In this document: positions 20,342 through 37,340 of the stretch, in pieces
Position numbering within the stretch: the stretch's first letter is position 1
How the letters are laid out: each line of letters opens with the position of its first letter
Assembly (NCBI RefSeq): GCF_007713685.1
Contig: NZ_VMRJ01000002.1
Location: 1 to 64,000 of the forward strand
From: Hymenobacter setariae
GTDB lineage: Bacteria > Bacteroidota > Bacteroidia > Cytophagales > Hymenobacteraceae
Direction of reading: 5' to 3'
DNA length: 64,000 nt
Notes under the pieces: model-generated
Seen by the model: the letters and a program-made list of their open reading frames with translations, nothing else
Databases searched by the model: none
Told to the model about the DNA's origin: nothing
Program-made: the position numbers and the translations under genes

Positions 20342-21247
20342 CTAGCGGTGCCGCTTATGTTGGCGCAAGTAGGCGAGCAGCTCGGCGGGGCGGTCGGTTT
20401 GGATGAGCGTGGCACCATGGGCTAGCAGCCAGCCCCAGCCGTCGGCAGGTTGGTTTTCTTCGAGGCTGCGCTCGTCGTCGTGGCCAGCGTCTAGGCTCGC
20501 CCACAGGCTATTGTACCAAATTTTAGAACCGGTGGTGGGAATGGTCTGGTAGGCCGAGTGCAGTAGCACGCTATCGGTGGGGAAGTTCAGCTCGTAGGCT
20601 ACGGGCCTGAGCTTGGTTTCGTACTCGCGAAGCAAGGCGGCGGCCTCGGGCTTGTGCAAATCCACAATGGGCATATACAGCAGCTGGCTGGTGAGCAAAG
20701 CGCCGTGCTCGGCCTTCACTTTTTCGTAGGGGTAGGCCGATTTGATAACCGCGTGGTCTACGGTGCCGGTTTTCACTAGCACGTCGTAGGCTTCTTGGAA
20801 GTAGTCGTAGCCTTTGTCGATGTTTACCATCACGCGGCCCTTGGCCGCCAGCATGCATTGCTCGAAGCTCGCGATACGCTGCCGGGTGGGACCACCATGC
20901 TGGTTTTTGAGGGTGAATTGCTGCAACTCGGCCCAGGTATAGTCGGCTGGGCGGCCTTTACCAGTGGTGGTGCGGTCGAGCAGGTTGTCGTGCATCAGGA
21001 TGAGCACACCATCCTTCGACTTCTTGAGGTCGATTTCGACCATATCCACTCCCATCTTGATGGCCGATTCGATGCCACGAATAGAATTTTCGGGCTCATT
21101 CCGCCAGTCGGCGCGGTGCGCCACCACCAACACTTGGTTGCTCTTAGGGTCTTTGAGCGTGCGAATGATGGCCTGCACCGGCCGCTGCGCTAGTGCTGGG
21201 CCACCTAGGAGCAGGCTAATGATGAAGGGCAGAACAAACTGTTTCAT
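20342..21247 (-). CDS. Secreted glycerophosphodiester phosphodiesterase family protein
   Basis: A 301-residue enzyme predicted to hydrolyse glycerophosphodiesters to glycerol-3-phosphate and an alcohol. The signal peptide is residues 1-21 (ending GGPALAQ). Catalytic and metal sites of the GDPD fold are visible: HR at 44-45, EPEN at 51-54, EID at 71-73 and MHD with His86, followed by LLDRTTTGKG. I chose the ATG at 21247; an in-frame extension to 21376 would run through a hairpin repeat and is spurious. It is the last gene of a leftward set: beta-propeller-like protein, SusC, SusD, GDPD. The export signal and SusCD neighbours suggest periplasmic use of imported phosphodiesters. Confidence 0.92.
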   Translation of the reverse strand: MKQFVLPFIISLLLGGPALAQRPVQAIIRTLKDPKSNQVLVVAHRADWRNEPENSIRGIESAIKMGVDMVEIDLKKSKDGVLILMHDNLLDRTTTGKGRPADYTWAELQQFTLKNQHGGPTRQRIASFEQCMLAAKGRVMVNIDKGYDYFQEAYDVLVKTGTVDHAVIKSAYPYEKVKAEHGALLTSQLLYMPIVDLHKPEAAALLREYETKLRPVAYELNFPTDSVLLHSAYQTIPTTGSKIWYNSLWASLDAGHDDERSLEENQPADGWGWLLAHGATLIQTDRPAELLAYLRQHKRHR

Positions 21248-21270
21248 AAGGGGTACTACTAAAATTAAGT

Positions 21271-21359
21271 CTGTCATACTGAGCTCTGCGAAGCATCTTC
21301 TCTGGTTAGAATTAGTAACTCTAGCGTGAGAAAATGCTTCGCAGAGCTCAGCATGGCAG
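21271..21359. repeat. Hairpin repeat family A, copy 1
   Basis: Inverted repeat with 26-base arms (21271-21296 and 21334-21359; 24 of 26 positions pair). The arms carry CTGTCATaCTGAGCTCTGCG and GAAGCAT. It lies between the SusD and GDPD genes. The outer TGTCATGCTGAGC and inner GAAGCATCTT blocks are shared with copies at 28826, 34378, 37369 and 59969. Confidence 0.85.
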
Positions 21360-21400
21360 ACGTGATGCGCGCGCATGGCGCTCAGGTGCCGATTAGCTTA

Positions 21401-22975
21401 TTAGTACCCTGGGTTCTGGTACATGCCCGTGGGGTTCAGCTTGGCCTCGTTGAACGGGATGGGGTAGTAATAGTCCTTCAGGCCGAAGTTGGTGAGCTGG
21501 GCGATGCCGAAGTTGGCTTGGCTTTTGGCCCGGAAGTAGTCGGTCAGCTGCTGCGGCGTGAAGGCGCGCTGCAAGTCAAACCAGCGCTGGTTTTCGAAAG
21601 CCAGTTCTACCCGGCGCTCGTGCAGGATGGCGAGCTTGAGGGTGGGATACTTGGCGCTGTAGCTGGCCGTGGCGCTAGCCACGGCGTAGCGCGGCAGGCC
21701 GGCACGCTCGCGCACTTGGTCGAGTTGGCTGATGGCGGTGGCCTCGTCGCCTAGGTAGAGGTTGGTTTCGGCCAGTAGCAGCAGCACGTCGGCGTAGCGC
21801 AGCAGCAGCCAGTCGTTGCCACCGTAGCCGGTGGTGCCGGCGGTGGCGCTGGCATCGCGGTACTTGGTAATGAAGTAGTCTTTCACCACGGCCGCGTTGG
21901 CGTACTTGATGGAGAAATCTTTGCGCACGTCGCCGGTTTCGTAGTCGAGCACGAGGTCGGGCGTCACGTTGCCGCCTACCCCGGTGTTGGGGCGCAGCGA
22001 GTTGATGATTTCGCCCTGGGCCTGGTAGTTAGCAGCGATGCGCGACGAGTAGTTGATGTCGCCCTGCCGGTACACGATGCGGAAGATGGCCTCGGGATTG
22101 TTCGTTTTCTTGGCCACTTCGAACACGTCGGCGTACGAGATTTCCTTCAGCAGCCCGAAGGTGCGCTTGCTGTAAGCCGTCGTGAGGTAGGTCTTGGCTT
22201 GGGTCAGGTTGGCACTGCGATTGGCTTGGTCGAGGGTGGTGGCCATGGTCAGGTACACCTTCCCCAAGAGAGCATTGGCCGCGATTTTGGAAGCGCGCCC
22301 GGTGTTGGCTGCCGACTGCGCATCGGGCAGCGGACTGGCGATAACATCCGTGAGGTCAGTCACTATTTGGGCGTATACCTTCTCCTTCTTCTCGCGGAAG
22401 GTGTTGGCCGCCACGGCATCGGGGGTAGTGAGCGGTTGGGTCACGAGCGGCACATCGCCCCATTCGCGCACCAGGTTGAAGTACGTGAGCGCCCGCAGGA
22501 ACTTGGCTTCGGCCTGGTACTGCGCCTTGGTGCTGGCTTGGGCGAAATTCACTTTTTCGGAGCCCGCCAGCATGTAGTTGGCCCGCGTGATAATCTGGTA
22601 CAGCGCCGTCCAGTGGTTTTGGAGGTAGGAGTTGCTGGGCAGCAGCGAAAATGCGTTGAATTGGAACGGTTCGCCGGCGTTCGACTGGTTGTCGTTGGTG
22701 CCAGTATTGTCCGAGCGCTGCTCACCGTAGAGGTCACTGCCCTCGGCCAGGCCACTGTTGTCGCGCAGGGCCGTGTACACGCCGTTGAGGGCCAGCAGCA
22801 CGTCGTTTTCCGACCGATAGTAGTTGTCGGCGGCTACGGCGTTGGGGTTGTTTTCGACCAGAAAATCCTTCTTGCACGAAGCCAGCAGTAAGCTGCCGAC
22901 CAAGCCCAGGCTCAGCAGCGCGGCCGGCCGACCTAGGGCCCCTAGGTGGGGTAAACGATTAGTTAAGAAACGCAT
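21401..22975 (-). CDS. SusD/RagB family nutrient-binding outer-membrane lipoprotein (pair 1)
   Basis: A 524-residue surface lipoprotein with lipobox LLASC (Cys near 34). The typical SusD opening is KKDFLVENNPNAV followed by a TPR-rich helical body (LNGVYTALRD, TRANYMLAG, AEAKFLRALTYFNLVREWG). The C-terminal half has LLLAETNLYLGDEATAISQLDQVRERAG and the closing PIPFNEAKLNPTGMYQNPGY. It caps the SusC channel encoded 29 bases upstream and binds the ligand. The family identity does not reveal the ligand; the neighbours (GDPD here, PI-PLC and GH92 in the second set) are the only clue. Confidence 0.94.
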   Translation of the reverse strand: MRFLTNRLPHLGALGRPAALLSLGLVGSLLLASCKKDFLVENNPNAVAADNYYRSENDVLLALNGVYTALRDNSGLAEGSDLYGEQRSDNTGTNDNQSNAGEPFQFNAFSLLPSNSYLQNHWTALYQIITRANYMLAGSEKVNFAQASTKAQYQAEAKFLRALTYFNLVREWGDVPLVTQPLTTPDAVAANTFREKKEKVYAQIVTDLTDVIASPLPDAQSAANTGRASKIAANALLGKVYLTMATTLDQANRSANLTQAKTYLTTAYSKRTFGLLKEISYADVFEVAKKTNNPEAIFRIVYRQGDINYSSRIAANYQAQGEIINSLRPNTGVGGNVTPDLVLDYETGDVRKDFSIKYANAAVVKDYFITKYRDASATAGTTGYGGNDWLLLRYADVLLLLAETNLYLGDEATAISQLDQVRERAGLPRYAVASATASYSAKYPTLKLAILHERRVELAFENQRWFDLQRAFTPQQLTDYFRAKSQANFGIAQLTNFGLKDYYYPIPFNEAKLNPTGMYQNPGY

Positions 22976-23004
22976 ATATAATGGCTATCTATGATGACGA
23001 ACGA

Positions 23005-26000
23005 CTAGAAGGAAAGGCGCACGCCCACGTTGTAGCCCCGCGCCAGCGGGTACTTGCCGTAGTCCACGCCGGGGGCTAGGTTGGCGCCGTTGTTGTAGTC
23101 TACCTCAGGGTTGTAGCCCTTGTATTTGGTGATGGTGAAGACGTTGTTGGCGTTGACATACACCCGCAGGCCGCTCACGTGCACCTTGCTGAGGAGAGTG
23201 GCGGGCAGGTTGTAGCCCAGCGTGAGGTTGGTGCAGCGCAGAAACGAGCCGCTCTGCAAGTAGAAGGTCGAGAGGCGGGTGCTGTTGCTCTGGGTGCCGC
23301 CGCGTGAGGCCCGGAATACCGTGCCGTCGCCGGGTTCGGCTTCCGAGCGGTAGCGGTTGGCTACGTTGGCATACTGATTGCCCGAGCCCTCCATGTTGTA
23401 CACGTAGTAGTCTTGCCCGTCGAGCACCTGGTTGCCGTACACGCCGTTGAAGCCAGCGTTGAAATCCAGGGCCTTGTAGTTGGCCGTCAGCGAGAAACCG
23501 TAGTTAAACTTGGGGTAGGGCGAGCCGATGACTTGCTTGTCGGCGTCGTTCACCACGCCGTCGTTATTCACGTCCTCAAAGTATAGGTCGCCGGGGCGCA
23601 GGGGGTTGGTGGAGGCTGTAGAGCGGGCGGGGCCCTTACGCACGTAGCCGGCCGGAAACGACTGAGTAGCGGCGTTGTACACGGCATTGTCGGCGGCAAT
23701 GTTATCTACGTCGGACTGCCGCACCATGCCCGCCACCCGGTAGCCGTAGAACATGCCCACCGGCTGCCCTTCCTGCGTGATGTGGGTGATGTACGAACGC
23801 TCGGCGCCGGCCGTCGTGATGGTATTAGCGCCACCCATATCCTGCACCAGGTTGCGGTTGAAGGATATGTTGCCGCTCAGACTCAGGTTAAAATCAGCTG
23901 TTTGAATGGCCTTGCCATCGAGTTGAAACTCTAGGCCCTGGTTGCGAATACGCGAGTCGCGTAGGTTAGTGAGGATGCTGGTGGTGCCCGAAATAGCCGA
24001 AATCGGCTGGTTGAACAGCAGGTTGTAAGAGTGGCTGAGGTAGACGTTGGAAATCAGCAGCAGGCGATTGTTGAACAAGCCTACGTCGAGTCCTAGGTTG
24101 AACTGCGAGGTCGATTCCCAACCTAGGCGCTGGTCTTTGAGCGCGCCGGCGTAGAAGGCCGTTTGGATGGTGCCCGGCCCGAATACGGCGCCGGTGGGGC
24201 TGGCCATGGTCTGCTGGTAGCCGTAGAGCGGAATGTTGTAATTGCCGGTGAGGCCCCAGCTGCCGCGCAGGCGCAACGTGGATGATTCGCCCACCATATC
24301 GCGGTAGAACGACTCATTCGAGATGGTCCAGCCCGCCGACAGCGAGGGGAAGCTGCCGTAGCGGTTCTCGGGCCCGAAGCGCGAAGAGCCATCGGTACGG
24401 AACGCGGCGGTCAGGTAGTAGCGCTCGTCGTAGCTGTACTGCACCCGCGCCAGGTACGAGAGCAGGGTTTCGGCCTGCTTGCCGGTGCCCGTAAAGCCCA
24501 CGCTGCTGGTGGCCGAGCTTTGGTAGAAGTTGGTTGGGTCGGCGCCTTTGGCCGTGATTTCCTGCACCGCATCATTCTGAAAACCCTGAGCCGACACGCT
24601 AATCTGGTCGAGGGTCGTGCGCTGGGCCGTGTAGCCGGCCAGGGCGTTCAGGTTATGCTTGCCAAACTGCTTGGTGTAGGTCGCCGTGAACTCCCCTAGG
24701 ATATTCTGCGTGTTGACGTTCAGGGCAGTAGCTGTAGCCGCCGCGATGGCCTGCGGCGAATAGGGCGCGTTGTTGCCGCTGCTCAGGCTGGTGGGCAGGT
24801 AGTACTCGTACTTCTCGTTGTAGGTCTGCAAGCCCACGTTGGCTTTGGCGATGAGACCGGGTAAGATTTCGTAGCTGGCGGTGCCGTTATAGGTGCCGCG
24901 TAGACCCTTGCGGGTGATGTTAGTTTCCTCGGCCAGCGCCACCGGGTTTTCGACGGTCTGATAGCCATAGGCCGACTGCTGGGCCGCCACCTCATTCTTG
25001 GCCAGGTTGCCGTTGTCGTCGTAGGCTCGGAAAGTCGGTGGGTAAATTAGCGCCCCTAGGATGGGGCCCTGGTTGAAGCGGCCTTCCTGCACCTCGCGGT
25101 TGCTGTTCGAAGTCACGAACAAGCTGCCACTGACGCGGAATTTCTTGCTCAGCTCAGCATCGAGGTTGGCCCGAAAGTTTATGCGCTCCTGCTTAGTCGC
25201 TACGATAATGCCTTGCTGCTGCTGGTAATCGCCGCTAATGAGGTAGCGCAGCCCGGCATTGCCGCCCGAGAAGGTCAGGTTGTGGCGGTTGAAGGGCGCG
25301 TTACGGTATAGTTCGTTTTGCCAGTCGGTGTTGTACTTGGGCGTGATGAGCTTCTGGTTAGCAAAGTCATATATGTCGGTCGGGATGCTGACCGAGCTGG
25401 CGTTGCCCACCCGCGCGATGCGCGTGGCGTTATCATCCGAAAACATGGCGTCGGTCCAGGGCTTGCCGCTATTCTGCACCAAGTCGCGGTAGGTGTTGTT
25501 GCGCCCATCAATGAGCAGCTGCGCAAAGCCGTTGGCGTCGAGCAGTTTTACCTTCTTGGCCAGTTGATTGATGCCGAATTGGTACTCGTAATCGACGCGG
25601 CCCTTGCCTTCCTTGCCGCGCTTGGTGGTGATAATCACTACCCCTCCCGATGCCCGCGAACCGTAGATGGCAGCCGAGGCGGCATCTTTCAGCACGTCGA
25701 TACTCTCAATGTCATTGGGATTAATAAACACGTCGTTAGCGGCCGGGAAACCGTCAATCACGTAGAGCGGGTCCGAGCTGGCGTTGATGGAGCCCACGCC
25801 CCGCACCCGAATTTTGGTGCTCACGTAGGGCGCGCCGCTCACCTGGGTGGCTTGCACGCCGGCCAGCTTGCCCACTAGGGCCTGCCCTAGGGTGGGCGCC
25901 GCGAGGTTCAGTTCCTTGGCCTTCACATCGGCTACGGCACCGGTCAGGTCGCTTTTGCGGGCGGTTTGGTAGCCTACGGCCACCACTTCGTTGAGCTCGT

Positions 26001-26349
26001 TGGCGCTGCCTTTTAGTTGGATGTTGATGGTGGTTTGGGTACTCACGACCACCTCCTGGCTTACGAAGCCAATGGCCGAAAACACCAACGTCGCGCCGGG
26101 ATTCACCTCGATGCTGAACCGGCCTGTGCCATCGGCAGCGGTACCGTTCGAGGTTTGTTTTTCAATCACGTTGGCGCCCGGCACCGGCTGGTTTTGCTCG
26201 TCGGTGATGGTGCCCGTGATACGCACGGCCTGCGGCGCCACCCGCGTCGGCAGCGGCCGGCCGGCTTGGGCCACGTGCGCCGCCGGCAAGCTACCGGCCA
26301 GCAGCAGGCCCGCCAACCACCGGCGTAGCGTTGTAGAGTATTGCGTCAT
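23005..26349 (-). CDS. SusC/RagA family TonB-linked outer-membrane receptor (pair 1)
   Basis: A 1114-residue TonB-dependent transporter. The order is signal peptide, carboxypeptidase-D-regulatory-like N-terminal domain (RITGTITDEQNQPVPGANV... near residues 43-125), and a plug domain with SusC signatures. The signatures are LNEVVAVGYQT, VRGVGSINASSDPLYVIDG and SIDVLKDAASAAIYGSRA. A long beta-barrel follows, ending in VGVRLSF with the terminal aromatic residue used for barrel insertion. The ATG at 26349 (MTQYSTTL) is preferred over an upstream TTG. It lies between a beta-propeller-like gene and its SusD partner, all transcribed leftward. Confidence 0.95.
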   Translation of the reverse strand: MTQYSTTLRRWLAGLLLAGSLPAAHVAQAGRPLPTRVAPQAVRITGTITDEQNQPVPGANVIEKQTSNGTAADGTGRFSIEVNPGATLVFSAIGFVSQEVVVSTQTTINIQLKGSANELNEVVAVGYQTARKSDLTGAVADVKAKELNLAAPTLGQALVGKLAGVQATQVSGAPYVSTKIRVRGVGSINASSDPLYVIDGFPAANDVFINPNDIESIDVLKDAASAAIYGSRASGGVVIITTKRGKEGKGRVDYEYQFGINQLAKKVKLLDANGFAQLLIDGRNNTYRDLVQNSGKPWTDAMFSDDNATRIARVGNASSVSIPTDIYDFANQKLITPKYNTDWQNELYRNAPFNRHNLTFSGGNAGLRYLISGDYQQQQGIIVATKQERINFRANLDAELSKKFRVSGSLFVTSNSNREVQEGRFNQGPILGALIYPPTFRAYDDNGNLAKNEVAAQQSAYGYQTVENPVALAEETNITRKGLRGTYNGTASYEILPGLIAKANVGLQTYNEKYEYYLPTSLSSGNNAPYSPQAIAAATATALNVNTQNILGEFTATYTKQFGKHNLNALAGYTAQRTTLDQISVSAQGFQNDAVQEITAKGADPTNFYQSSATSSVGFTGTGKQAETLLSYLARVQYSYDERYYLTAAFRTDGSSRFGPENRYGSFPSLSAGWTISNESFYRDMVGESSTLRLRGSWGLTGNYNIPLYGYQQTMASPTGAVFGPGTIQTAFYAGALKDQRLGWESTSQFNLGLDVGLFNNRLLLISNVYLSHSYNLLFNQPISAISGTTSILTNLRDSRIRNQGLEFQLDGKAIQTADFNLSLSGNISFNRNLVQDMGGANTITTAGAERSYITHITQEGQPVGMFYGYRVAGMVRQSDVDNIAADNAVYNAATQSFPAGYVRKGPARSTASTNPLRPGDLYFEDVNNDGVVNDADKQVIGSPYPKFNYGFSLTANYKALDFNAGFNGVYGNQVLDGQDYYVYNMEGSGNQYANVANRYRSEAEPGDGTVFRASRGGTQSNSTRLSTFYLQSGSFLRCTNLTLGYNLPATLLSKVHVSGLRVYVNANNVFTITKYKGYNPEVDYNNGANLAPGVDYGKYPLARGYNVGVRLSF

Positions 26350-26409
26350 AGTTGTAACCCTCAAGTTGTTGGAGGTGAAAAAAGTAGTCGGTAGGTGTGC
26401 CCTAGGTGG

Positions 26410-27276
26410 CTACCAGGCCAGGCGCACGGCGTGCACGTTGTCGCGGCGCGAGGAGGTGACGGCCAGCCCTTTGGCCACATCGCCGAGCAGCGTAAAACCT
26501 TCCAGCTCGTCGGCCTTGTCCACGTCGATGACTCGGCGCACGACTTCGTGGCCAGCGGCCAGCGACTGATTTAAATCGAGCAGCGTGAAGCGCCAGCGGC
26601 GACCTTGCTCCTGGTTTTGGATGAGCACCAGCGTGCCCTTACTGGACACCCACAGCAGGTTTTGCACCCAGGGCGAGCAGGTAAATTTTTTGACCAGCAC
26701 GCCCGGCTCGCTGGTCTTGTGGGCCTTGGCTAGCTTAGCTGGGTCATAGAGCCGCACTTCGTTGCCCTGAGGGCCGTAGTCGGCTGTGGCCACGTACCAC
26801 TTGCCTTGGGACTGCACGTACTCGGGGCGGGTGCCCTGCACGCAAGCATCGTCCTCGATAGTGTTGAGCAGGTGCCCGTCGAGGGTGCCGCCCTGCAGCA
26901 AGCCCGCCCAATCAACGGCGTAGATGACGGCCCGCCACTTGGTGCCTTCGGCGTTCAGCCGGATGCTGTTGCCGATGAAGGTGGGGCCGGTGCCGTTCCA
27001 AGCCACGCCGGTGGGGTGGTTGATGACGTCCTGGCCTTTTTCAGTCAGCTTCACTTCCTGTCCTAGGTAGGTCAGCGAGTCGGCTCCGGGCCGATACGCC
27101 CGAATGACGCCCACCTCGCGGTCGCCGTAGAGGTACAGCCGCCCTTGCTGGTAGCTGGCGCCCTGGCAGGCACCTAGGGCGCTGGCCGTGGAGGTGGCCG
27201 TGATGGCTAGCTCTACCGAGGTCGGCTGGGCAAGGGCGCTGGTCAAGCCAATACCTAGTAGCAGTAATTTATTCAT
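26410..27276 (-). CDS. Secreted beta-propeller-like protein of unknown function
   Basis: A 288-residue protein with a signal peptide (MNKLLLLGIGLTSALAQ). The rest is rich in short beta strands with repeated aromatic/aspartate patterns (GRLYLYGDREVGVIRAYR, HPTGVAWNGTGPTFIGNS, GKWYVATADYGPQGNEVRLYD, VSSKGTLVLIQNQEQG), which suggest a small propeller. I do not recognise the family; a phytase-like or lactonase-like propeller is possible but unproven. The ATG at 27276 is used; the codon two residues earlier is TTG. It is the first gene of the leftward SusCD-GDPD set, so a role in binding or cutting the same substrate is inferred. Confidence 0.7.
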   Translation of the reverse strand: MNKLLLLGIGLTSALAQPTSVELAITATSTASALGACQGASYQQGRLYLYGDREVGVIRAYRPGADSLTYLGQEVKLTEKGQDVINHPTGVAWNGTGPTFIGNSIRLNAEGTKWRAVIYAVDWAGLLQGGTLDGHLLNTIEDDACVQGTRPEYVQSQGKWYVATADYGPQGNEVRLYDPAKLAKAHKTSEPGVLVKKFTCSPWVQNLLWVSSKGTLVLIQNQEQGRRWRFTLLDLNQSLAAGHEVVRRVIDVDKADELEGFTLLGDVAKGLAVTSSRRDNVHAVRLAW

Positions 27277-27545
27277 AATCAACCCCTACACTTGAGTAAC
27301 CACTTGCACAGCCTGCTTGTGCTAGGTGCCGTTGCTACTCGCTACTTCATCTGCGCGTTTAGGCGGTTTTTGCGACTGCAAAGGACGTTTTCTAGAATTA
27401 CTAGCACTTTACAGCAGTGTTGCCGGGATATTATGTTTGCGTTGGAGGGGTCAAAAAGCCAGGATTGGTGCAGCCTGGACCCGTAGAAAGCGGTTAGCTC
27501 ATCGCAAGCTGGAAGACCAGTTCGCTTCACCGCACCTTTTTTTGC

Positions 27546-28787
27546 ATGACCCAGCGCTTACTCCTACTGCTGTGCCGCTCGCTGTTGAGCTTTGCCAGCA
27601 TAGGGCAGCCCGCAGCCGCCCGGCCTACTGCCGCCCGCACCGATTCCATTATTCTGGCCAAAACATTCCCGCTGCTAGCGCTTTTCGAGGCCAAACCCGC
27701 CCTGCGGCAAGCGTTGCGGGCATCGCCCGAGCTGCAACGCCTGGCACAGCGGCAGGCCCGGCGCAGTGCACCGCTCCTCGCCCAGGCAGTAGTACCGTTG
27801 CGGCGCTACGCAGATTCACTAGCGTGGCAGCCGCGCGAAATCCAGCAGGTAGGTCAGCTTTTGCAGCAGGCTTATGTCAGCAATGCGGCCTTTCGGGCGG
27901 GAGCAAGGCCACTATTTGCCAAGTCCGGACCCTACCCTCGCTACGCTGGCCAACCCGACACCGCAGCCCTGCGCCTAGCTTGGCAAGATGCCGCGGCGGG
28001 CATCAACCGCATCTTGCGGGTGTACCTGGCCAGTGCCAAGCCGCGTTACCCGGCCATCGACTCCATCAGCTTTCGACGCGGCGATGCTGGGCTGGCGCCG
28101 CAGCTACGCCAGCAGCTGCCCACCAAGGCCAGCAAGACCGCCGCTTTCTACACCTTGCCCCTGCAAGCAGCCCTAGGTGCCCTGCGCCTTAACGGCCGCG
28201 ACGAAGCCGCCCGCTACGAGCCGCTGACCGGCGGCCTCAATGCTGCCCCTACCGCTGCTGTAGCCCGCACCGACTGGGCGCGCTACCCTTATACTGTGAT
28301 ACTAGTGCCCGGCAGCGGCCCCGAGCAGCCCGGCGTGGCGCTTGACTCGGCCGGGGCCCAGCGTTGCCGGTTGGCAGCGGCTCGCTACCGAGCAGGGCAG
28401 GCGCCGTTTGTGGTAGTATCAGGCGGGCACGTGCACCCGTTTCGCACGCCGGTTTGTGAGGCGGTCGAGATGAAAAAGTACCTGGTCGAACACCTAGGCG
28501 TGCCCGCGGCGGCAGTGTTTATTGAGCCCCACGCCCGCCACACCACCACCAACCTACGCAACACGGCCCGGCTACTAGAATTTGCTAAGTTTCCGGCGGG
28601 CCGGCCTCTGCTCATCGTGACCGACGCGGCCCAGAGTCGCTACATCCTAGGCATGGCCGAGCGCTGCCGCCGCGAGCTAGGCTATGTGCCCTATCGCGAC
28701 TTGGAGCGTATTTCGGAAACGGAAAATAGCTGCTACCCTGTACCCGAAGCCAGGCAGCCCGACCCATTTGACCCACTCGACCCCTAG
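27546..28787 (+). CDS. YdcF/ElyC/SanA family (DUF218) protein
   Basis: A 413-residue protein. The N-terminal half is Ala/Arg/Gln-rich and helical after a leader (residues 1-25). The C-terminal half is a DUF218 domain: VILVPGSGPEQPGVALDSAGAQR, FVVVSGGHVHPF, VEMKKYLVEHLGVP, FIEPHARHTTTNLRNTARL and IVTDAAQSRYILGMAERC. These carry the conserved Gly-rich loop, Glu and His/Thr/Asn positions. Family members are tied to envelope metabolism, but the reaction is not well defined. It heads the rightward half of the accessory block, divergent from the beta-propeller gene. A family A hairpin follows it. Confidence 0.85.
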   Translation: MTQRLLLLLCRSLLSFASIGQPAAARPTAARTDSIILAKTFPLLALFEAKPALRQALRASPELQRLAQRQARRSAPLLAQAVVPLRRYADSLAWQPREIQQVGQLLQQAYVSNAAFRAGARPLFAKSGPYPRYAGQPDTAALRLAWQDAAAGINRILRVYLASAKPRYPAIDSISFRRGDAGLAPQLRQQLPTKASKTAAFYTLPLQAALGALRLNGRDEAARYEPLTGGLNAAPTAAVARTDWARYPYTVILVPGSGPEQPGVALDSAGAQRCRLAAARYRAGQAPFVVVSGGHVHPFRTPVCEAVEMKKYLVEHLGVPAAAVFIEPHARHTTTNLRNTARLLEFAKFPAGRPLLIVTDAAQSRYILGMAERCRRELGYVPYRDLERISETENSCYPVPEARQPDPFDPLDP

Positions 28788-28825
28788 GGGCCGGGGTTTA
28801 GGAGTCGTTCACAAGTATTACTTCT

Positions 28826-28918: not shown

Positions 28919-28967
28919 ATATTTTATCAGCTAAATCGTTTTTTCAAGCACCTTCTTGAGCAGCCAC

Positions 28968-31070
28968 GTGATTAGTAGCATAAAGAGATATCTAGGTTAT
29001 TTCCTCGTAGCCGGGCTTACCCTCCCGGCCTTGGCCCAAAGCCCAGCCGAGCAAGTCAATGTATTCCTAGGTTCTTCCGGCGACCATGGGCAGCTGTCGC
29101 CGGCCGCGTCCTATCCGTTTAGTATGCTGAGTTTGGGGCCGCAGACCTACCCCAATCTACACACTGGCTACGAGCACCTAGCACGCACATTTCTAGGGTT
29201 CACGCACACGCGCTTTGAGGGGGTAGGCTGCCAGGGCGCGGGCGGCAACCTGCTCGTGAAACCCCTCCTGGGTACTGACCCTGCGCAAACTACACTACTC
29301 AAGAAGACTGAGCGCGCTACGCCGGGCTACTACGGCGTCACGTTTGAGAATGGCATTGGGGCCGAGCTAACGGCGGCGCAGCGCTTCGGGCTGCACCGCT
29401 ACCACTTTCCGGCCAGCGGGGCGCGGGGGCTGTTTATGGACATCAGCTATTCTTTCGCCAACGGCTTCAAGCACGAGGAGCACGCCACGACTGACAACAC
29501 GCTGAGCGGCTGGCTAGAAGCAGGCACCACCTGCGGCGCGGGCACTTACCGGCTTTATTACTACCTCGAAACCAGCCAGCCAGTGCAGTGGGAGCCCGCG
29601 GGCGCGCACAAACTGGTAGCCCGCCTACCCACCACCGGCGCGCCCGATGTGGAAGTGCGCGTGGCCTTTTCGTCAGTGAGCCTGGCCGATGCGCAGGCCA
29701 CGCTGAAGCAGCAGGCGGCCGCCGATTTTGCGGCGGTGCGGCAGGCGAGCGCGCAGGCCTGGAATGCGCTGCTCGGCCGTGTGCAAGTGCAGGGCGCGCC
29801 CGACCGCGAGCGCCTGTTTTACTCGCTGCTGTACCGCACCTTGCAATCGCCCTACGTGGTGTCGGAGCCCGATGGGCGCTACCAGGCTACCAATGGCTCG
29901 TTGCAACATTCCACCCGCCCCGTCTACAATGGCTGGGCAATATGGGACAATTACCACACGCAGCTACCGCTGCTGTCGCTGGCCTACCCTACCGAGTTTC
30001 AGGACATCGCCACCTCGCTCGCCAACTTGTATCGCTTCGGCAAAAAAGACTACGCGACCCAGCACGAGCCCTCGCCCACAGTGCGCACCGAGCACGCCAG
30101 CGTAGTGCTGCTCGATGCCGCCCGCAAAGGCTACACCGTAGACCTGCGCGGCATCCGCGACTCACTCGTAAGCCAGGCCCGGCGCCTCGACTACTCGCAC
30201 CCCGACAAAGCCCTCGAATCGTCGTACGATGCCTGGGCACTGGGCGAAATCCTAGGTAGGCTAAAAGAGTCTAAAGAAGCAGCAGTCTGGCACACCAAAG
30301 CGCTGGACTATAAACGCTATTGGCAGAAGGACTTCCAGGACATGACTAAGCCCGATGTGGACCGCCTCCCGGCCCGTGGCCTCTACCAAGGCACCATCTG
30401 GCAGTACCGCTGGAATGTGCCCTATGACATTCGCGGCTTGCAGGAATTGATGGGCGGCGAGGCGGCCTTCCGGCAGCAACTCGATGCCTTTTTTGGCGGC
30501 GACTACTACAACCACGCCAACGAAACCGACTTGCAGGCCCCTACCCTCTACAACGCCACCCGGCAGCCCTGGCTTTCGCAGGCGCTGGTGCACCACCTAG
30601 CCGTCGATACGGTGGTGCAGCACTACTTCAACGACAATAGCCGCGGCATCGACCCCTACGTGGGCCGCATCTACCAAAACCAGCCCCAGGCCTACCTCCG
30701 CACCATGGACGACGACGCGGGCGCCATGTCGGCCTGGTTTGTGCTCGCGGGCTGCGGGCTGCTTCCCGCCTGCGTGGGCGAGCCGGTGTACTACCTCAAC
30801 CTACCCCTCTTTCAGCAGCTTACGCTGCAAACGGGGGGGCGCAAGCCGCTCACGATTAAGGTGGAAAACTATGGACCAAACCGCATGTACATTCAAGCGG
30901 CGCGGCTGAATGGCAAGCCGCTGAATCGCAACTGGCTCACGCACCAAGAGCTAGCTGCTGGTGGCACGCTAGAGTTTGTGGCCGCCGATGTGCCCAATAA
31001 GGCCTGGGGCACGCAGCAGCTTTGGGTAGCAGGCGAGCCAACTAGCAACGCTCCAGCTAAAGCAAAGTAG
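28968..31070 (+). CDS. Glycoside hydrolase family 92-like alpha-mannosidase
   Basis: A 700-residue secreted enzyme resembling GH92, a Ca-dependent exo-alpha-mannosidase family. It has a signal peptide (ends LPALAQ) and the N-terminal beta-sandwich start VNVFLGSSGDHGQLSPAASYPF. The helical barrel includes WAIWDNYHTQLPLL. The catalytic segment HANETDLQAPTLYN keeps the candidate acid Glu519. The segment MDDDAGAMSAWFVLAGCGL (near 580) is equivalent to the DNGQMSAW motif of classic members. Both motifs differ from the usual GNEPDH and DNGQMSAW forms, so substrate preference may be altered. The start is uncertain: GTG at 28968 is used, TTG at 28956 is the alternative. Next downstream is SusC pair 2. 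Confidence 0.85.
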   Translation: MISSIKRYLGYFLVAGLTLPALAQSPAEQVNVFLGSSGDHGQLSPAASYPFSMLSLGPQTYPNLHTGYEHLARTFLGFTHTRFEGVGCQGAGGNLLVKPLLGTDPAQTTLLKKTERATPGYYGVTFENGIGAELTAAQRFGLHRYHFPASGARGLFMDISYSFANGFKHEEHATTDNTLSGWLEAGTTCGAGTYRLYYYLETSQPVQWEPAGAHKLVARLPTTGAPDVEVRVAFSSVSLADAQATLKQQAAADFAAVRQASAQAWNALLGRVQVQGAPDRERLFYSLLYRTLQSPYVVSEPDGRYQATNGSLQHSTRPVYNGWAIWDNYHTQLPLLSLAYPTEFQDIATSLANLYRFGKKDYATQHEPSPTVRTEHASVVLLDAARKGYTVDLRGIRDSLVSQARRLDYSHPDKALESSYDAWALGEILGRLKESKEAAVWHTKALDYKRYWQKDFQDMTKPDVDRLPARGLYQGTIWQYRWNVPYDIRGLQELMGGEAAFRQQLDAFFGGDYYNHANETDLQAPTLYNATRQPWLSQALVHHLAVDTVVQHYFNDNSRGIDPYVGRIYQNQPQAYLRTMDDDAGAMSAWFVLAGCGLLPACVGEPVYYLNLPLFQQLTLQTGGRKPLTIKVENYGPNRMYIQAARLNGKPLNRNWLTHQELAAGGTLEFVAADVPNKAWGTQQLWVAGEPTSNAPAKAK

Positions 31071-31348
31071 TGCCCGTACCTGCCGGCCATAACCATCTGC
31101 TTAGTGCGTGTTAATAGCGCGGGGCGCAGTTGCGTGCCATCAACAATAACTTAACCGTTTTTCAAGAACTTAACGCTCGCCAAGTCAACGAATTACCCTG
31201 CTCATCTACCTGAGCGGTGGTACCAGCATATGTTTTATTATTTAACGTAGAAATGCAAACTGTAATATTAAAATGACATTCTGATAATAGGCGCGGCGGT
31301 GCTTTGTGGTGCTCAAAAACAGCCCTTTCCACATTGCCCTAGGCGCTT

Positions 31349-34300
31349 ATGAAAAAGAAGTACTTTGCCCACCGTATAGAGCCGCCAGCCGGCGGGCTTC
31401 GCACCAGCAGCCTAGGGCTGGCGCTGCTCCTGTGCCCCATGCTAGCCGCTGCGCAGCAAACCATTAAGGGCACGGTAACGGATGAGAAAAACGCGCCCCT
31501 GCCCGGCGTGACGGTGCGCCTCAAGGATGGCAGCACGGCCGTAGGCACTGCCCCCGATGGTACCTACAGCATCAAAACCAACGGCCCGACCGATATTCTG
31601 GTGTTTTCCTTCCTAGGTACCGAGCCCAAGGAAGTAATTGCGGGCACCCAAACCAGCCTCAATGTGACGCTGCTGCCCGATGCGCAAAAGCTGAAGGACG
31701 TGGTAGTTATCGGCTACGGCACGGCTACCCGCGAGGATATTATCGGGTCGGTGACTTCTGTAAAAGCCGGCGAGTTTAACCAGGGTGTGCTGACCACGCC
31801 CGCTGAGCTGCTGCAAGGCAAAGTAGCCGGCCTCAACATCACTAAGAGCGGCGACCCCAACCAGCGGCCCTCGGTGGTGCTGCGCGGCCCCAGCACCATC
31901 CGCACTCTCAATGGCGGCGTGACGGAGCCATTTTATGTGATTGACGGCGTGCCCGGCGCCAGCATCGACCTGTTGGCCCCCGACGATATTGCCACCATCG
32001 ACGTGCTCAAGGATGCATCGTCCACGGCCATTTACGGTACGCGAGCGGCTAATGGTGTTATTATCATCACGACCAAGCGAGCCAAGTCGGGCCAAACGCG
32101 CCTGACTTACAGCGCCTACGGCGCGGTGGCCAACGTGTCGAAGAAAGTAGACATGCTGAGCGGTGACGAGCTGCGCCAATACCTAGTAGCTAATAAGACC
32201 CGACCGCTGGCCCAGCCCACCGACGACGATGGCTCGAACACCGACTGGCAAAAGCTAGTGGAACGCACCAGCTACTCTACCAACCACAACCTCTCGTTCA
32301 ACGGCTCGGCTAATGCTACGGACTACGGCGCCAGCGTCAACTACCTGAAGAATAACGGCATCCTGAACCGCACCTCGCTGGAGCGCATCATCTACCGAGG
32401 CTTCATCAACCAGCGCTTTTTCAATAATCGCCTGAAGCTGGGCGTGAACATCATCAACAGCTCGACCACCCAGAACGACCTGCCGCAGACCCAGGTACTG
32501 CAAAACATGCTGTTCTATCTGCCCACGGTGAGCCCCTACAACGCCGATGGCAGCTACAAGGAAAACTACACGCGTACTGGCAGCGGCCCACTGAACCCGC
32601 TCTCGCTGGTGAATAACAACACCTACGTGACCAAGGACAGCAAAACGCTGGTCAATGGCTTGGTGCAGCTCGACATCATTACGGGCCTGAAACTCACGCT
32701 TAGCGGCTCGAACCAGCGCACCCAAACCAACTTTAACAGCTACCTCAACAGCCAGTCGGGCCTGGCCGTGAACCTAGGCGGCGTGGCCCGCCGCAACGAG
32801 TACGAAACCACTAACGATGTGGTGGAGCTGTACGCCAACTACGACCGCACCTTTGGCCAGCACAACTTGCAGCTCCTAGGTGGCTACTCGTACCAGCAAG
32901 ACCGCACCAACGACGGCTTCGGCATCACGACCCAGGGCTTTGCCAACGACGCCCTAGGGTACAATAACTTATATCTGTCTAACCCGTCGTCGCTGGCGCA
33001 GATTGCCTTCGACAACAACCCCATTTCGACGCTGCGCCTCATCTCGCAGTATGCCCGGGCGCAGTACCAATACGGCGACCGCTACCTGGCGCAGGTGTCG
33101 GTGCGGCGCGATGGCTCGTCGGCCTTCGGCGTGAACAACCGCTACGGCTACTTCCCCACGGCGGCCCTCGGGTGGCGCCTTATCAATGAGGAGTTTATGC
33201 GCGGGTTGCCCGCTTTCAGCGACCTCAAGCTGCGCGCTGGCTACGGCGTATCGGGCAATAGCCAGGGCTTCGACGCCTTCTCGTCCATCCTCATCTACGG
33301 CACGCCGCCCGGCAGCAGCAAGTATCTGAACAACGGTGTTATCTCGAACGTGGTGAACGCCGTGCGTAATGAAAACCCCGACCTGAAGTGGGAAAGCACC
33401 GCCACCACTAACGTGGGCTTGGACATTGGCTTCTTCAAAAACCGCCTCACGGCCTCGGTCGATTTTTACATTAAAAAGACCCGCGACCTCATCGACGACG
33501 TGCTGCCGGTGTCGAGCACCGAGTTTCAGTACACCACCTACACCGCCAACGTGGGCAGCATGACCAACCGCGGCATCGAGGTGGTGCTGAGCGCGGTGCC
33601 CGTGCAAACGGCCGCTTTCACCTGGCGCTCGTCGCTCAACTTCTCGCACAATACTAACCGCATCGACAACCTGAGCACCGACCGGTTCACGATTCCTTAC
33701 ATCCAGACCGCGCAGCTCGGCGGCAAGGGCCAGAGCGGCAACTACAGCCAGATTATCCAGCCCGGCTCGGCGGTGGGCACCTTCACGCTGTGGCACTACC
33801 TCGGCAAAAATGAGCGGGGCGTGAGCACCTTCCAGAAGGCCGACGGCAGCACCACCGCCACCCAGCCCCTCACCACCGACCAGCAAGTGGTGGGCAATGC
33901 CCAGCCCAAGCTTATCTACGGCTGGGTCAACAACTTTACCTACAAAGCCTTCGACCTCAACTTCTTGGTGCGCGGCGTGTACGGCAATAAAATTCTGAAC
34001 GCCACCCTAGCCGGCCTCAACAACCCGGCCGATGCGCGCCTGCAAAACATCCCGCGCTTCACCCTAGGCGAGTCGTTCAACGACATCAACGCCTACCTCA
34101 TCTCCGACCGCTTCCTAGAAAGCGGCTCCTACCTGCGCCTCGACAACGCCACCCTAGGTTACACCCTGCGCCCCAATACGCCCTACGTGAAGGCCTTGCG
34201 CTTCTACGTGAACACCAATAACCTGTTCATCATCACCAAGTACCGCGGCATCGACCCCGAAATCAACATCGGCGGCCTCACGCCGGGCATCGACAACAAC

Positions 34301-34354
34301 AACTATTACCCCAAAACCCGGACGTTCACGCTGGGGCTAACGGCTTCGTTTTAA
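31349..34354 (+). CDS. SusC/RagA family TonB-linked outer-membrane receptor (pair 2)
   Basis: A 1001-residue transporter, shorter than its paralog at 23005. Signal peptide to about residue 36. A carboxypeptidase-D-regulatory-like domain follows (TIKGTVTDEKNAPLPGVTV). Then comes a plug with LKDVVVIGYGTATREDIIGS, PFYVIDGVPGAS, TIDVLKDASSTAIYGTRAANG, and a barrel ending in LGLTASF. It is the second importer in the block and is followed by its own SusD. The upstream 278 bases (31071-31348) contain no gene and are A+T-rich around 31220-31290, so a promoter is likely there although I see no perfect consensus. Divergence from pair 1 suggests a different ligand or fragment size. Confidence 0.95.
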   Translation: MKKKYFAHRIEPPAGGLRTSSLGLALLLCPMLAAAQQTIKGTVTDEKNAPLPGVTVRLKDGSTAVGTAPDGTYSIKTNGPTDILVFSFLGTEPKEVIAGTQTSLNVTLLPDAQKLKDVVVIGYGTATREDIIGSVTSVKAGEFNQGVLTTPAELLQGKVAGLNITKSGDPNQRPSVVLRGPSTIRTLNGGVTEPFYVIDGVPGASIDLLAPDDIATIDVLKDASSTAIYGTRAANGVIIITTKRAKSGQTRLTYSAYGAVANVSKKVDMLSGDELRQYLVANKTRPLAQPTDDDGSNTDWQKLVERTSYSTNHNLSFNGSANATDYGASVNYLKNNGILNRTSLERIIYRGFINQRFFNNRLKLGVNIINSSTTQNDLPQTQVLQNMLFYLPTVSPYNADGSYKENYTRTGSGPLNPLSLVNNNTYVTKDSKTLVNGLVQLDIITGLKLTLSGSNQRTQTNFNSYLNSQSGLAVNLGGVARRNEYETTNDVVELYANYDRTFGQHNLQLLGGYSYQQDRTNDGFGITTQGFANDALGYNNLYLSNPSSLAQIAFDNNPISTLRLISQYARAQYQYGDRYLAQVSVRRDGSSAFGVNNRYGYFPTAALGWRLINEEFMRGLPAFSDLKLRAGYGVSGNSQGFDAFSSILIYGTPPGSSKYLNNGVISNVVNAVRNENPDLKWESTATTNVGLDIGFFKNRLTASVDFYIKKTRDLIDDVLPVSSTEFQYTTYTANVGSMTNRGIEVVLSAVPVQTAAFTWRSSLNFSHNTNRIDNLSTDRFTIPYIQTAQLGGKGQSGNYSQIIQPGSAVGTFTLWHYLGKNERGVSTFQKADGSTTATQPLTTDQQVVGNAQPKLIYGWVNNFTYKAFDLNFLVRGVYGNKILNATLAGLNNPADARLQNIPRFTLGESFNDINAYLISDRFLESGSYLRLDNATLGYTLRPNTPYVKALRFYVNTNNLFIITKYRGIDPEINIGGLTPGIDNNNYYPKTRTFTLGLTASF

Positions 34355-34377
34355 GGGCTTTTATTCGATAATATCAT

Positions 34378-34497
34378 TTGTCATGCTGAGCACAGCGCAG
34401 CGGAGTCGAAGCATCTCTACCAGTGAACTAACTCCTGACGCCAACAACGGTGCGATAGAGATGCTTCGGCTCCGCTGCGCTGCGCTCAGCATGACAA
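34378..34497. repeat. Hairpin repeat family A, copy 3
   Basis: Inverted repeat with 42-base arms (34378-34419 and 34456-34497) that pair at 40 positions, the longest arms of the family. The arms start TTGTCATGCTGAGC and end GAAGCATCTCTA, with a GCAGCGCAGCGGAG block between. It is placed between SusC and SusD of pair 2, where it could set relative expression or RNA stability. Confidence 0.88.
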
Positions 34498-34517
34498 GGA
34501 CAACCTAGGAATTACTT

Positions 34518-36110
34518 ATGAAAAGCAAAGCTATTCTCCTTGCTCTGAGCGCGCTAGCTACCGTCACGTACTCCTGCAAAAAGCTGGACGTGCCGGTCGA
34601 GTCGCAGTTTGTAGAGTCCAACTTTCCCAAGACCATCAGCGACTACAACGCTTCGGTGGGGGCTATGTATTCTAACCTGTCGTCGCAGTTTGCGGTGCCC
34701 TACTGGCGCATGCAAACCATGAGCACCGACGAGGCCATCATCCCGGCCCGCGACGGCAACTTCGACGACGGTGGGCAGTATCGCCAGCTGCACTACCACA
34801 CCTGGACGCCCGACCACCCCAACGTGCTCACCATCTGGCAGTGGGCGTATAGCGGCATCCAAACCTGTAACCGCCTGCTCAACGTTACGAGCGCCTTCAA
34901 CTTCTCGGACCAGGAAAAGGCTAACCGGCTGGCTGAAATCCGGGCCATGCGGGCGCTGTACTACTACTTTTTGATGGACCTGTACGGCAACGTGCCCCTC
35001 ATCACGGACTATCCGGCGCCCGCCTCGCCCGCCACCAAGCCGCGCGCCGAGGTATATAAGTTTATTGAAAGCGAACTGACCGGCATCACCGGCAAGCTAC
35101 CGGCCAAGACCAATAACGCTGCCACCAATACCCAGCAGTATGGCCGCCCCACCAAGGGCATGGTGTATGCGCTGCTGGCTAAGCTCTACCTCAACTCGGA
35201 GGTGTACGTGGGCACCACCCGCTACCCCGACGTGGTGCGCATGGCCGACAGCGTGCAGGCCAATACCAACTACGCCCTCGATACCCGCTACCGCGATATT
35301 TTCCTGCCCAACAACGGCCCGCAGATTCGCGAGACCATCTTCGCCGTGCCCTACGACCAGCAGATTCCGGGCAACCAGTTTACGCGCTTTGGCTTTTTCT
35401 ACTACCTCACGCAGGCCTACGGCTTCAACGTGAACCTAAGCATCGCCATGAGCACCACGCCCGAGTTCTACGCGCGCTTCAACCTGCCCGGCGACTTCCG
35501 CACCACCACCTGGCTGGCCGGCCCACAGTACGCGCCCGATGGCAACGGCGGCTTCACCACCACGCCAGTCTACTACCCCAATTCGACCACCCAAATTAAC
35601 ATCAACCCGGTGCTGACGCTGGTGCCGCCCAAGCCCATGGACCTAGGCAACACTCAAGCCAGCCAGGCCTCGGGCGCGCGCTCCATCAAATACTACCCCG
35701 ACCCCACCATCATCCAGGGCACCCGCCTCAACGGCAACGACGTGCCCCTGCTGCGCCTCGCCGACGTGCTACTGATGAAGGCCGAAGCCATCTTGCGGGG
35801 CGCCACCGCCACGAGTGTCAACGGCGAACTGCAAACCCCGCTAGTGCTTGTCAATAAAATCCGCGCCCGCGCCGGAGCTCAGCAGGCCATCAGCATCACC
35901 CTCAGCGGCATGCTCGATGAGCGCGCCCGCGAGCTGAGTTGGGAAGCCTGGCGCCGCAACGACCTCATCCGCTTCGGCCAGTTTGAAACCGAATACCCCC
36001 TGCCCAACGACGTGCTAAAGATGGATAAGAGCGAGTTTCGCCGCCTCTATCCCGTGCCGACTATTGAGCTGCGGCTGAATAGCAATTTGGTGCAGAACAA
36101 GGGGTATTAA
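34518..36110 (+). CDS. SusD/RagB family nutrient-binding outer-membrane lipoprotein (pair 2)
   Basis: A 530-residue surface lipoprotein (lipobox VTYSCKK, Cys near 20) with the SusD helical body: NRLLNVTSAFNFSDQ, RAMRALYYYFLMDLYGNVPL, GMVYALLAKLYLNSEVYVG and the C-terminal LLMKAEAILRGATAT, ARELSWEAWRRNDLIRFG and LVQNKGY. It pairs with the SusC encoded 163 bases upstream; a family A hairpin occupies most of that gap. Sequence similarity to pair 1 is low outside family motifs. The ligand is unknown. PI-PLC is the next gene. Confidence 0.94.
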   Translation: MKSKAILLALSALATVTYSCKKLDVPVESQFVESNFPKTISDYNASVGAMYSNLSSQFAVPYWRMQTMSTDEAIIPARDGNFDDGGQYRQLHYHTWTPDHPNVLTIWQWAYSGIQTCNRLLNVTSAFNFSDQEKANRLAEIRAMRALYYYFLMDLYGNVPLITDYPAPASPATKPRAEVYKFIESELTGITGKLPAKTNNAATNTQQYGRPTKGMVYALLAKLYLNSEVYVGTTRYPDVVRMADSVQANTNYALDTRYRDIFLPNNGPQIRETIFAVPYDQQIPGNQFTRFGFFYYLTQAYGFNVNLSIAMSTTPEFYARFNLPGDFRTTTWLAGPQYAPDGNGGFTTTPVYYPNSTTQININPVLTLVPPKPMDLGNTQASQASGARSIKYYPDPTIIQGTRLNGNDVPLLRLADVLLMKAEAILRGATATSVNGELQTPLVLVNKIRARAGAQQAISITLSGMLDERARELSWEAWRRNDLIRFGQFETEYPLPNDVLKMDKSEFRRLYPVPTIELRLNSNLVQNKGY

Positions 36111-36120
36111 GAGGCCCTAT

Positions 36121-36248
36121 CGTAGAACCCCACCCCCGGCCCCTCCCCTCCGGGAGAGGGGTGCCGACCGCAAGCAGGTATAAGCGAGCGCTAGTAGTCG
36201 TTTGGCACCCCTCTCCCGGAGGGGAGGGGCCGGGGGTGGGGTCCTACG
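36121..36248. repeat. Hairpin repeat family B (C-rich)
   Basis: Two 45-base arms (36121-36165 and 36204-36248) pair at 44 positions. The left arm is rich in C (CCCCACCCCCGGCCCCTCCC), the right arm is its G-rich complement. The loop is about 38 bases. It differs completely from family A. It lies between SusD pair 2 and the PI-PLC gene. Confidence 0.85.
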
Positions 36249-36278
36249 CAAGCACCAGACTACCAATACAACTGTCCT

Positions 36279-37340
36279 ATGAAACTACTCCTTATCCCCA
36301 TTAGCATCCTCACCCTAGGTTCGCTTGCCTTCACTAAGCCTGCTGAGCCACTAATGAATCAAATCCAGGTCATTGGCTCGCACAACAGCTACAAGCAAGC
36401 TATTGACCCCAAGCTGTTTGCTATACTGCACAAAGCCGATTCGGCTACTTTTAATAAGATTGACTACGAGCACGCCACTCTTACCGAGCAGCTCGACCTA
36501 GGGCTGCTGGCATTGGAAATCGACGTGTATGCCGACACCCAGGGCGGCAAGTACGCCCACCCTAAGGGCCTCGACTTGGCCCCTGGCCAGCCGCCCTACG
36601 ACCCGGCTGGACTGATGAAAGAGCCGGGGTTTAAGGTGTTTCACATTCAGGACCTCGACTACCGCAGCAATGCACCCACCTTCAAGCTGGCCTTGCAGGA
36701 GCTAAAAAAATGGTCGCTGGCCCACCCCACGCACAACCCGGTGTTCATTACCATGAACGCTAAGAGCGAGGCGCTACCCCGGCCGGGCCTCACGGTGCCC
36801 GAGCCCTTCACGCCGGCCGTGTTCGATGCCTTAGATAAGGAAATCCGTGACTACCTAGGGGCTGACCAGCTCATCACCCCAGACCAGGTTCGTGGCCAGT
36901 ACGCCACCCTCGAAAGCGCCGTGCTGCATCGCAATTGGCCCACCTTGCGCGCCGCGCAGGGCAAGTTCGTATTCGTGCTCGATGAGGTGGGCGAGAAGCG
37001 CGCCACCTATATCCAGGGGCATCCCTCGCTGAAAGGCCGGGTGCTATTTGCCGATGCCGAACCGGGCACGCCTGAGGCGGCCATCCACATCCTAAATAAT
37101 GCCAAGAAGGACCTAGGGGCTATTAAAGGCTTGGTGCAGAAGGGCTACATCATTCGCACCCGCGCCGACAGCGACACCCAGGAGGCCCGCCGCAACGACA
37201 AGAGCAGCTTTGAAGCCGCCATGCAGTCGGGCGCCCAAATCATCAGCACCGACTATTACCGCCCGAGCACGCACTTCAAGTCGGACTACGCCATCAGCTT
37301 CCCCGGCGGCAGGTATTTCCGGCCCGACCCAGTGCTGTAG
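36279..37340 (+). CDS. Secreted Ca-dependent phosphoinositide phospholipase C-type protein
   Basis: A 353-residue enzyme of the PI-PLC superfamily (Ca-dependent PI-PLC-C1-like). Signal peptide in the first 20 or so residues. Active-site motifs are GSHNSYK with catalytic His35, LEIDVYAD with metal ligands Glu80 and Asp82, and FHIQDLDY with second catalytic His122. A later RTRADSD...STDYYRP segment fits the closing part of the barrel. Such enzymes cleave phosphatidylinositol or related phosphodiesters between diacylglycerol and phosphate. It is the last gene of the rightward GH92-SusC-SusD set, flanked by hairpin repeats on both sides. Confidence 0.88.
   Translation: MKLLLIPISILTLGSLAFTKPAEPLMNQIQVIGSHNSYKQAIDPKLFAILHKADSATFNKIDYEHATLTEQLDLGLLALEIDVYADTQGGKYAHPKGLDLAPGQPPYDPAGLMKEPGFKVFHIQDLDYRSNAPTFKLALQELKKWSLAHPTHNPVFITMNAKSEALPRPGLTVPEPFTPAVFDALDKEIRDYLGADQLITPDQVRGQYATLESAVLHRNWPTLRAAQGKFVFVLDEVGEKRATYIQGHPSLKGRVLFADAEPGTPEAAIHILNNAKKDLGAIKGLVQKGYIIRTRADSDTQEARRNDKSSFEAAMQSGAQIISTDYYRPSTHFKSDYAISFPGGRYFRPDPVL

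Follow-up and report, generated by a model that had tools for sequence, protein, structure and literature searches.

Which substrates could be handled by a gene set that combines two SusC/SusD pairs with two phosphodiesterases and a glycoside hydrolase is the question raised by a block of about 17 kb (20342..37340) in Hymenobacter setariae. The window analyzed was a stretch of 64,000 nucleotides of contig NZ_VMRJ01000002.1, in which the nine predicted genes of the block were all found at their expected positions (Table 1), arranged as two divergent sets (20342-27282, minus strand; 27546-37340, plus strand) separated by 263 bp. An original prediction had proposed a locus for the utilization of mannosylated phosphoinositides, and its account of the gene content (two SusC/SusD pairs, a GDPD, a PI-PLC, a GH92, a YdcF protein, and a propeller-like protein) was confirmed by Pfam/NCBIfam assignments and a structural model. 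We consider it rather likely that the block is an inserted composite island in which scavenging of organic phosphodiesters, related to the phosphate utilization systems (PUS) of Flavobacterium johnsoniae, is combined with a GH92 acting as a mannosyl-phosphodiesterase in the manner of CcMan5. Its likely targets are lipids joined through phosphate and phosphates of mannose, and not plain mannose chains.

Alignment of the island GH92 with solved GH92s placed Gln478 at the position of the general-acid Glu, in the motif YQGTIWQYRW; CcMan5 has YQGTLWQYHW at this place, whereas the Bacteroides alpha-mannosidases BT3990 (2wzs), BT3130, and 7zgm show EGN.W.Y with Glu. The best solved matches of the island protein were the CcMan5 structures 4aq0 and 2xsg. 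Gln was found at the acid position in 120/120 listed homologues (of 1516 found; 121/121 with the island GH92) and in all 82 genome loci checked for this type of enzyme (hereafter GH92-Gln), and Glu in 19/19 other GH92s aligned. In a tree of 33 sequences, CcMan5 and 13 Gln types were set apart from 19 Glu types with an ultrafast bootstrap (UFBoot) of 100, the island protein clustering with CcMan5 and not with the Glu types. Gln478 and Asp525 were both present in 14/14 sequences of the Gln side (CcMan5 included) and in 0/19 of the Glu types, and the column of Asp587, in the base-side motif, was kept in 33/33. That GH92-Gln might be a lone degenerate copy was rejected on the constancy of Gln among the listed homologues.

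Published data on characterized members bear on the effect of this replacement. CcMan5, a GH92 from Cellulosimicrobium cellulans, is described as cleaving Man-phosphate-Man (PMC5930347); the E598Q mutant of AnGH92A from Aspergillus is reported as inactive on alpha-mannosides (PMC12858847), and Glu533 variants of BT3990 as substantially impaired, yet with some activity left (PMC10167667). Because its general-acid Glu is replaced by Gln478, the island GH92 is by its sequence not an ordinary alpha-mannosidase, and the mannose-trimming role that had been assigned to it found no support. From the Gln signature shared with CcMan5, the tree, and the E-to-Q mutant data, we infer that it cuts mannose-1-phosphodiesters. 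Phosphate is a good leaving group whose release needs no general acid and, on this chemical reasoning, GH92-Gln would require none. CcMan5 and the island protein have in common the GH92 fold, Gln at the acid position, and Asp at island position 525; the Bacteroides alpha-mannosidases share with it the fold and the Asp587 column but carry the Glu that its own family lacks. Two points weigh against this assignment: the island protein is about 31% identical to CcMan5, which comes from another phylum, and fold library scores failed to set GH92-Gln apart from Glu-type GH92s. With Gln478 in place of Glu, all three enzymes of the island (GDPD, PI-PLC, and GH92-Gln) therefore look like phosphodiester cutters. 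The only CAZy-type enzyme identified in the island was GH92-Gln, devoid of the acid that cleavage of glycosidic bonds calls for. Pfam assigned none of the island proteins to a known phosphatase family; a GDPD is present.

The GDPD residues H87/R88, E96/N97, E114/D116, and H129 were invariant in 18/18 aligned sequences, as the original prediction of its catalytic residues would have it. In the case of the PI-PLC, H122 and D82 were invariant in 36/36 and H35 was at least 95% conserved; E80, also proposed, was not conserved. In the DUF218 protein, H332, T333-T335, E305, and E308 were invariant among 33 aligned relatives. These three alignments include the island protein, and those of the GDPD and the PI-PLC also that of Hymenobacter sp. 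BT559. Work on SanA/ElyC proteins, to which the DUF218 protein is similar, points to an enzymatic role, as yet unproven, in the metabolism of envelope glycans and to a conserved Thr/His/Glu triad (PMC12176290, PMC8609368). The match of 3i10 to the GDPD with its DUF4996 domain was almost whole-length. The 290-aa open reading frame (ORF) gave no Pfam or NCBIfam match at an E value of 0.001; its structural model is a predicted beta-propeller. Glutaminyl cyclases and YjiK ranked first among the fold matches, ahead of numerous further propellers, and this pointed to no function. The GDPD ORF is open to 21376; its start was re-read at 21247 (the ATG of MKQF..., signal-peptide-like by eye), which is the more likely one because the extra 43 codons run through a short palindromic repeat. 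This imperfect repeat of about 90 bp lies at 21269-21361, within the 5'-terminal part of the GDPD ORF, and again at 37368-37451, just past the PI-PLC gene. The BT559 locus (L081) has three copies of it, and it has the appearance of a short palindromic element of the dispersed kind.

Table 1. Predicted genes of the Hymenobacter setariae island. ORFs were called with a greedy script, families assigned by Pfam/NCBIfam (TIGR04056 cut-off, 368 bits), and export judged by eye from the N-termini.
Predicted product	Position	Strand	Support
GDPD-type phosphodiesterase with C-terminal DUF4996, exported by eye	20342..21247	-	PF03009 + PF16387; solved homologue 3i10, E 2e-74
SusD1 surface lipoprotein	21401..22975	-	PF07980/PF14322
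SusC1 TonB-dependent transporter	23005..26364	-	TIGR04056, 848 bits
Beta-propeller (290 aa), partner of SusC1/SusD1	26410..27282	-	Model fold
DUF218 (YdcF/SanA/ElyC-like) protein, exported by eye	27546..28787	+	PF02698, E 1e-17
GH92 of the Gln type, predicted mannosyl-phosphodiesterase	28956..31070	+	PF07971, E 2e-83; PF17678, E 4e-38
SusC2 TonB-dependent transporter	31349..34354	+	TIGR04056, 709 bits
SusD2 surface lipoprotein	34518..36110	+	PF07980/PF14322
PI-PLC of the Ca2+-dependent type (PI-PLC-C1), exported by eye	36279..37340	+	PF16670, E 1e-127; solved relative 3h4w, E 8e-7

On one side of the block lies a gene for a chalcone-synthase-type polyketide synthase (19171-20283; PF00195/PF02797), and on the other a gene for a methyltransferase (37969-38685; PF13649). 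Homologues of these two genes lie no more than 1.4 kb apart in 18/18 other genomes of the genus examined, and in H. setariae they are split by the 17-kb block; the nine genes therefore form one island inserted in this lineage. A single insertion supports a joint function of the nine genes, without proving it. To the right of the block, a gene for an NHL-repeat protein (PF01436, E 1e-44) is located at 38813-39721.

A genome scan for GH92-Gln yielded 198 relatives, 80 of which were kept; by record title, their hosts are Bacteroidota, except for one metagenome-assembled genome titled Thalassovita (L061). Together with L087 and L088, from two other members of the genus, they made 82 loci; L089 was left out as a duplicate of L004, and counts over 83 loci still include it. 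The flanks searched for neighbors reached 10 kb at most, and less where a contig ended sooner. SusC and SusD on the strand of GH92-Gln and within three genes of it were found in 41/82 loci, DUF218 within the fetched flank in 35 (directly adjacent in 19), the propeller in 13, and a directly adjacent GDPD in 13. YdcF (the DUF218 protein), the propeller, SusC1/SusD1, GDPD, and GH92-Gln occurred together in 13/82 loci, namely that of BT559 and 12 of Mucilaginibacter/Sphingobacteriaceae, in which all of them lie on one strand. Close relatives of SusC1 (phmmer, 1220-1444 bits) were present in 18 GH92-Gln loci besides that of BT559. Of the 19/82 loci with SusC1/SusD1 and GH92-Gln, six were devoid of GDPD and propeller, four of these six having YdcF. 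Another locus (L152) contains the YdcF-propeller-SusC1/SusD1-GDPD set without GH92, and 15/83 loci yielded none of the partners searched for. The Pedobacter GH92-Gln loci L080 (3690-9335), L054, L058, L067, L069, L072, and L076 have three genes in common upstream of GH92, which code for a DUF2911 protein, a symporter of the SSF type, and a large PIG-L-domain protein that also matches ThuA weakly (Pfam, one representative each).

PI-PLC was found in the flank of GH92-Gln in 1/83 loci, that of BT559, and the island and BT559 were the only ones among the loci examined to contain all nine genes. SusC2-SusD2-PI-PLC was found apart from the first set in four other Hymenobacter (L082-L085), with a relative of a PF04185 phosphoesterase nearby in 4/4 (Pfam was run on L085 only). 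In three of them there is also a 485-aa protein with no Pfam match of its own, which scored a weak 54-57 bits against PHP-domain proteins of L123 and L139. L083 shows fragmentation, by sequence errors or decay: its SusC2 homologue is spread over four ORFs and its phosphoesterase homologue over three (14725-17727 and 4659-7474). The block is thus a composite of sub-modules that also occur separately, and an origin in one ancestral nine-gene system was rejected for this reason. Given that the sub-modules are separable, one substrate for the whole set is something that can only be inferred.

The second set has a known counterpart. In F. johnsoniae, PusCD clusters are induced by phosphate depletion, PUSI (Fjoh_4172/4173) containing PF16670 and PF00149 and PUSII containing PF00245/PF13653 (PMC8115612; ISME J 2020); name and Pfam look swapped between two rows of Table 1 of that paper, which sets PUS against polysaccharide utilization loci (PULs), the latter with CAZy enzymes. 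SusC2-SusD2-PI-PLC lie on one strand, with the SusC/SusD pair adjoining PI-PLC-C1, and have the PUSI layout. The original prediction that no locus with this enzyme set had been described was accordingly too broad for this half, SusC/SusD with PI-PLC-C1 being already known; for the whole set, no description was found in the literature searched. The island resembles PUSI, and PUSII with its alkaline phosphatase bearing a GDPD-like domain, in the PUL-like layout of organophosphorus enzymes beside a SusC/SusD-like pair. It differs from both in having two such pairs, the DUF4996-GDPD, the propeller, DUF218, and GH92, and no known phosphatase family. The novelty here is that a CAZy-family member, of the Gln type, has been added, together with DUF218 and the propeller. 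Literature searches linking GH92, phosphatidylinositol, and polysaccharide utilization retrieved nothing, although different wording could turn up related work; with the wording used, nothing was found either on PI-PLC with SusD in Bacteroidetes or on phosphomannan with Bacteroides PULs.

Among 395 Bacteroidota genomes, PI-PLC-C1 was detected in 29, DUF4996 in 11, and GH92-Gln in 5, the last count resting on two candidates scored per genome at an E value of 1e-150. SusC and SusD were present in the flanks of 20/28 PI-PLC-C1 loci of this phylum-wide draw, and a GH92 in 1/28 (L134). In the 10 other genomes with DUF4996, SusD directly adjoins it in six and lies two genes off in a seventh. The H. 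setariae block shares this pairing and adds the propeller, plus GH92-Gln and PI-PLC in one island.

These neighborhoods bear on the alternative closest to the original prediction, namely a carbon-utilization locus for mannosylated phosphoinositides such as glycosylphosphatidylinositol (GPI) anchors or phosphatidylinositol (PI) mannosides, in which GH92 would trim mannose, PI-PLC would free inositol phosphate, and GDPD would finish the degradation. Recurrence of the gene set in other genomes had been named as a finding that would support the idea, and a GH92 near PI-PLC-C1 does recur: a separate deep Glu-type clade (YEATSWEY, ANEPSF), together with a small conserved protein, lies near PI-PLC-C1 in L134 (3599-5878) and near SusC2-SusD2-PI-PLC in three Hymenobacter (L082, 9159-11432; L083, 8077-10350; L084, 7531-9819). 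That recurrence and the single insertion of the nine genes favor this alternative, but the GH92s concerned are Glu types of other clades, and the acid required to cleave glycosidic bonds is missing from the island GH92. Moreover, the four iolE matches in the H. setariae genome were all below the cut-off (best 62.6 bits against 290), iolE being the inositol gene sought. Of the original proposal, an enzyme set centered on phosphodiesters is retained and the link to phosphoinositides is partly supported, mannose trimming being unsupported; we regard the carbon-utilization locus as improbable.

It is also unlikely, in our judgment, that the block consists of two unrelated neighboring operons, one for mannosyl phosphates and glycerophosphodiesters and the other a PI-PLC system resembling PUSI, which would have neither substrate nor regulation in common. 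This would agree with the finding of each half alone, the first in the 12 Mucilaginibacter/Sphingobacteriaceae loci and the second in the four other Hymenobacter; however, the halves are divergent, closely spaced, and both within one insertion. In addition, the Pedobacter genome G195, the only one of the phylum-wide scan besides that of H. setariae with PI-PLC-C1, DUF4996, and GH92-Gln, contains a cluster (L139, G195:C12) in which SusC1/SusD1-GDPD lies directly beside SusC2/SusD2-PI-PLC; next come genes for an alkaline phosphatase, a PHP protein, and a fusion of GDPD_2 with an alkaline phosphatase. This large organophosphate cluster, which also includes an MFS transporter, joins PUSI-like and PUSII-like parts in another family, but it is the one fetched locus to do so; the GH92-Gln of G195 lies on a separate contig (L159).

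A third alternative is that GH92-Gln removes mannose-1-phosphate caps from fungal mannan and clears phosphomannan for other mannanases of the genome, the phospholipid enzymes being incidental. In Rufibacter L010 and L018, GH92-Gln is accompanied by a GH76-family protein (in L018 assigned by BLAST cluster only) and Glu-type GH92s, as expected for fungal mannan, and the H. setariae genome contains nine GH92s and one GH76, the latter between two GH92s on the contig of the island. That GH76 is, however, about 650 kb away, no endo-mannanase family was found by Pfam among the island proteins, and the fuller clusters pair GH92-Gln with GDPD, DUF218, and the propeller rather than with mannanases, which leaves cap removal a doubtful explanation.

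By analogy with the F. johnsoniae clusters, the island may be under low-phosphate control. The sequence TAACN7TAAC does not occur in the island, and its one match in the window (1.17 expected) lies outside it. It was found upstream of 9/26 SusC1/SusC2-type genes, 10/63 other SusC genes, and 3/78 other long ORFs; since the genes compared are related to one another and the first difference is slight, the counts were not used as evidence. A scan for repeats of period 11, with a crude block shuffle, gave in the window only two overlapping matches of another sequence, within the 45 bp before SusC1. TAAC direct repeats of period 11, absent from the island and possibly a Pho-type site, were seen upstream of a SusC or PF04185 gene in L085 (1289-1319), L008 (4943), L152 (15873), L139 (15246), and L133 (4659); judging by titles, no paper on Pho boxes of Bacteroidota was found.

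Under the favored reading of phosphodiester scavenging, SusC2/SusD2 would import phosphoinositide-type ligands, whose inositol phosphodiester would be cut by PI-PLC-C1, and SusC1/SusD1 would import ligands feeding DUF4996-GDPD and GH92-Gln. The former would cut glycerophosphodiester-type bonds and the latter mannose-1-phosphate diesters, as CcMan5 does, to give mannose and a phosphomonoester, with DUF218 and the propeller as conserved partners. Mannosylated phosphoinositides/GPI, fungal phosphomannan, and inositol lipids of the phospholipomannan type are possible substrates, each of which would fit. Phospholipomannan is described as mannose chains joined through a phosphodiester with alpha-mannose to a mannosylated sphingolipid, and phosphomannan as bearing a phosphodiester-linked mannose cap (PMC4112839); from an enzyme name in the same source it follows that the lipid is inositol-phosphoceramide. 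Both would offer bonds for GH92-Gln and perhaps for PI-PLC, which is a matter of fit and not evidence. More tentatively, the island may be a dedicated system for mannose-/inositol-phosphodiester glycolipids or phosphomannans, a PUS-like locus with a recruited member of a glycoside hydrolase family turned phosphodiesterase, regularly accompanied by DUF218 and by propellers of a new family.

If the favored reading is true, SusC/SusD phosphate-scavenging loci also recruit a member of a CAZyme family turned phosphodiesterase, and DUF218 and the new propeller, both orphan families, would be tied to mannose-phosphate chemistry. The rule of Gln at the acid position with Asp525 would lead to re-annotation of a GH92 branch, some members of which are named "putative alpha-1,2-mannosidase" in databases. 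Should the dedicated-system reading also be true, GH92-Gln, which was of the Gln type in all relatives kept from the scan, would be the marker of a widespread means for Bacteroidota to draw phosphorus and mannose from the surfaces of fungi.

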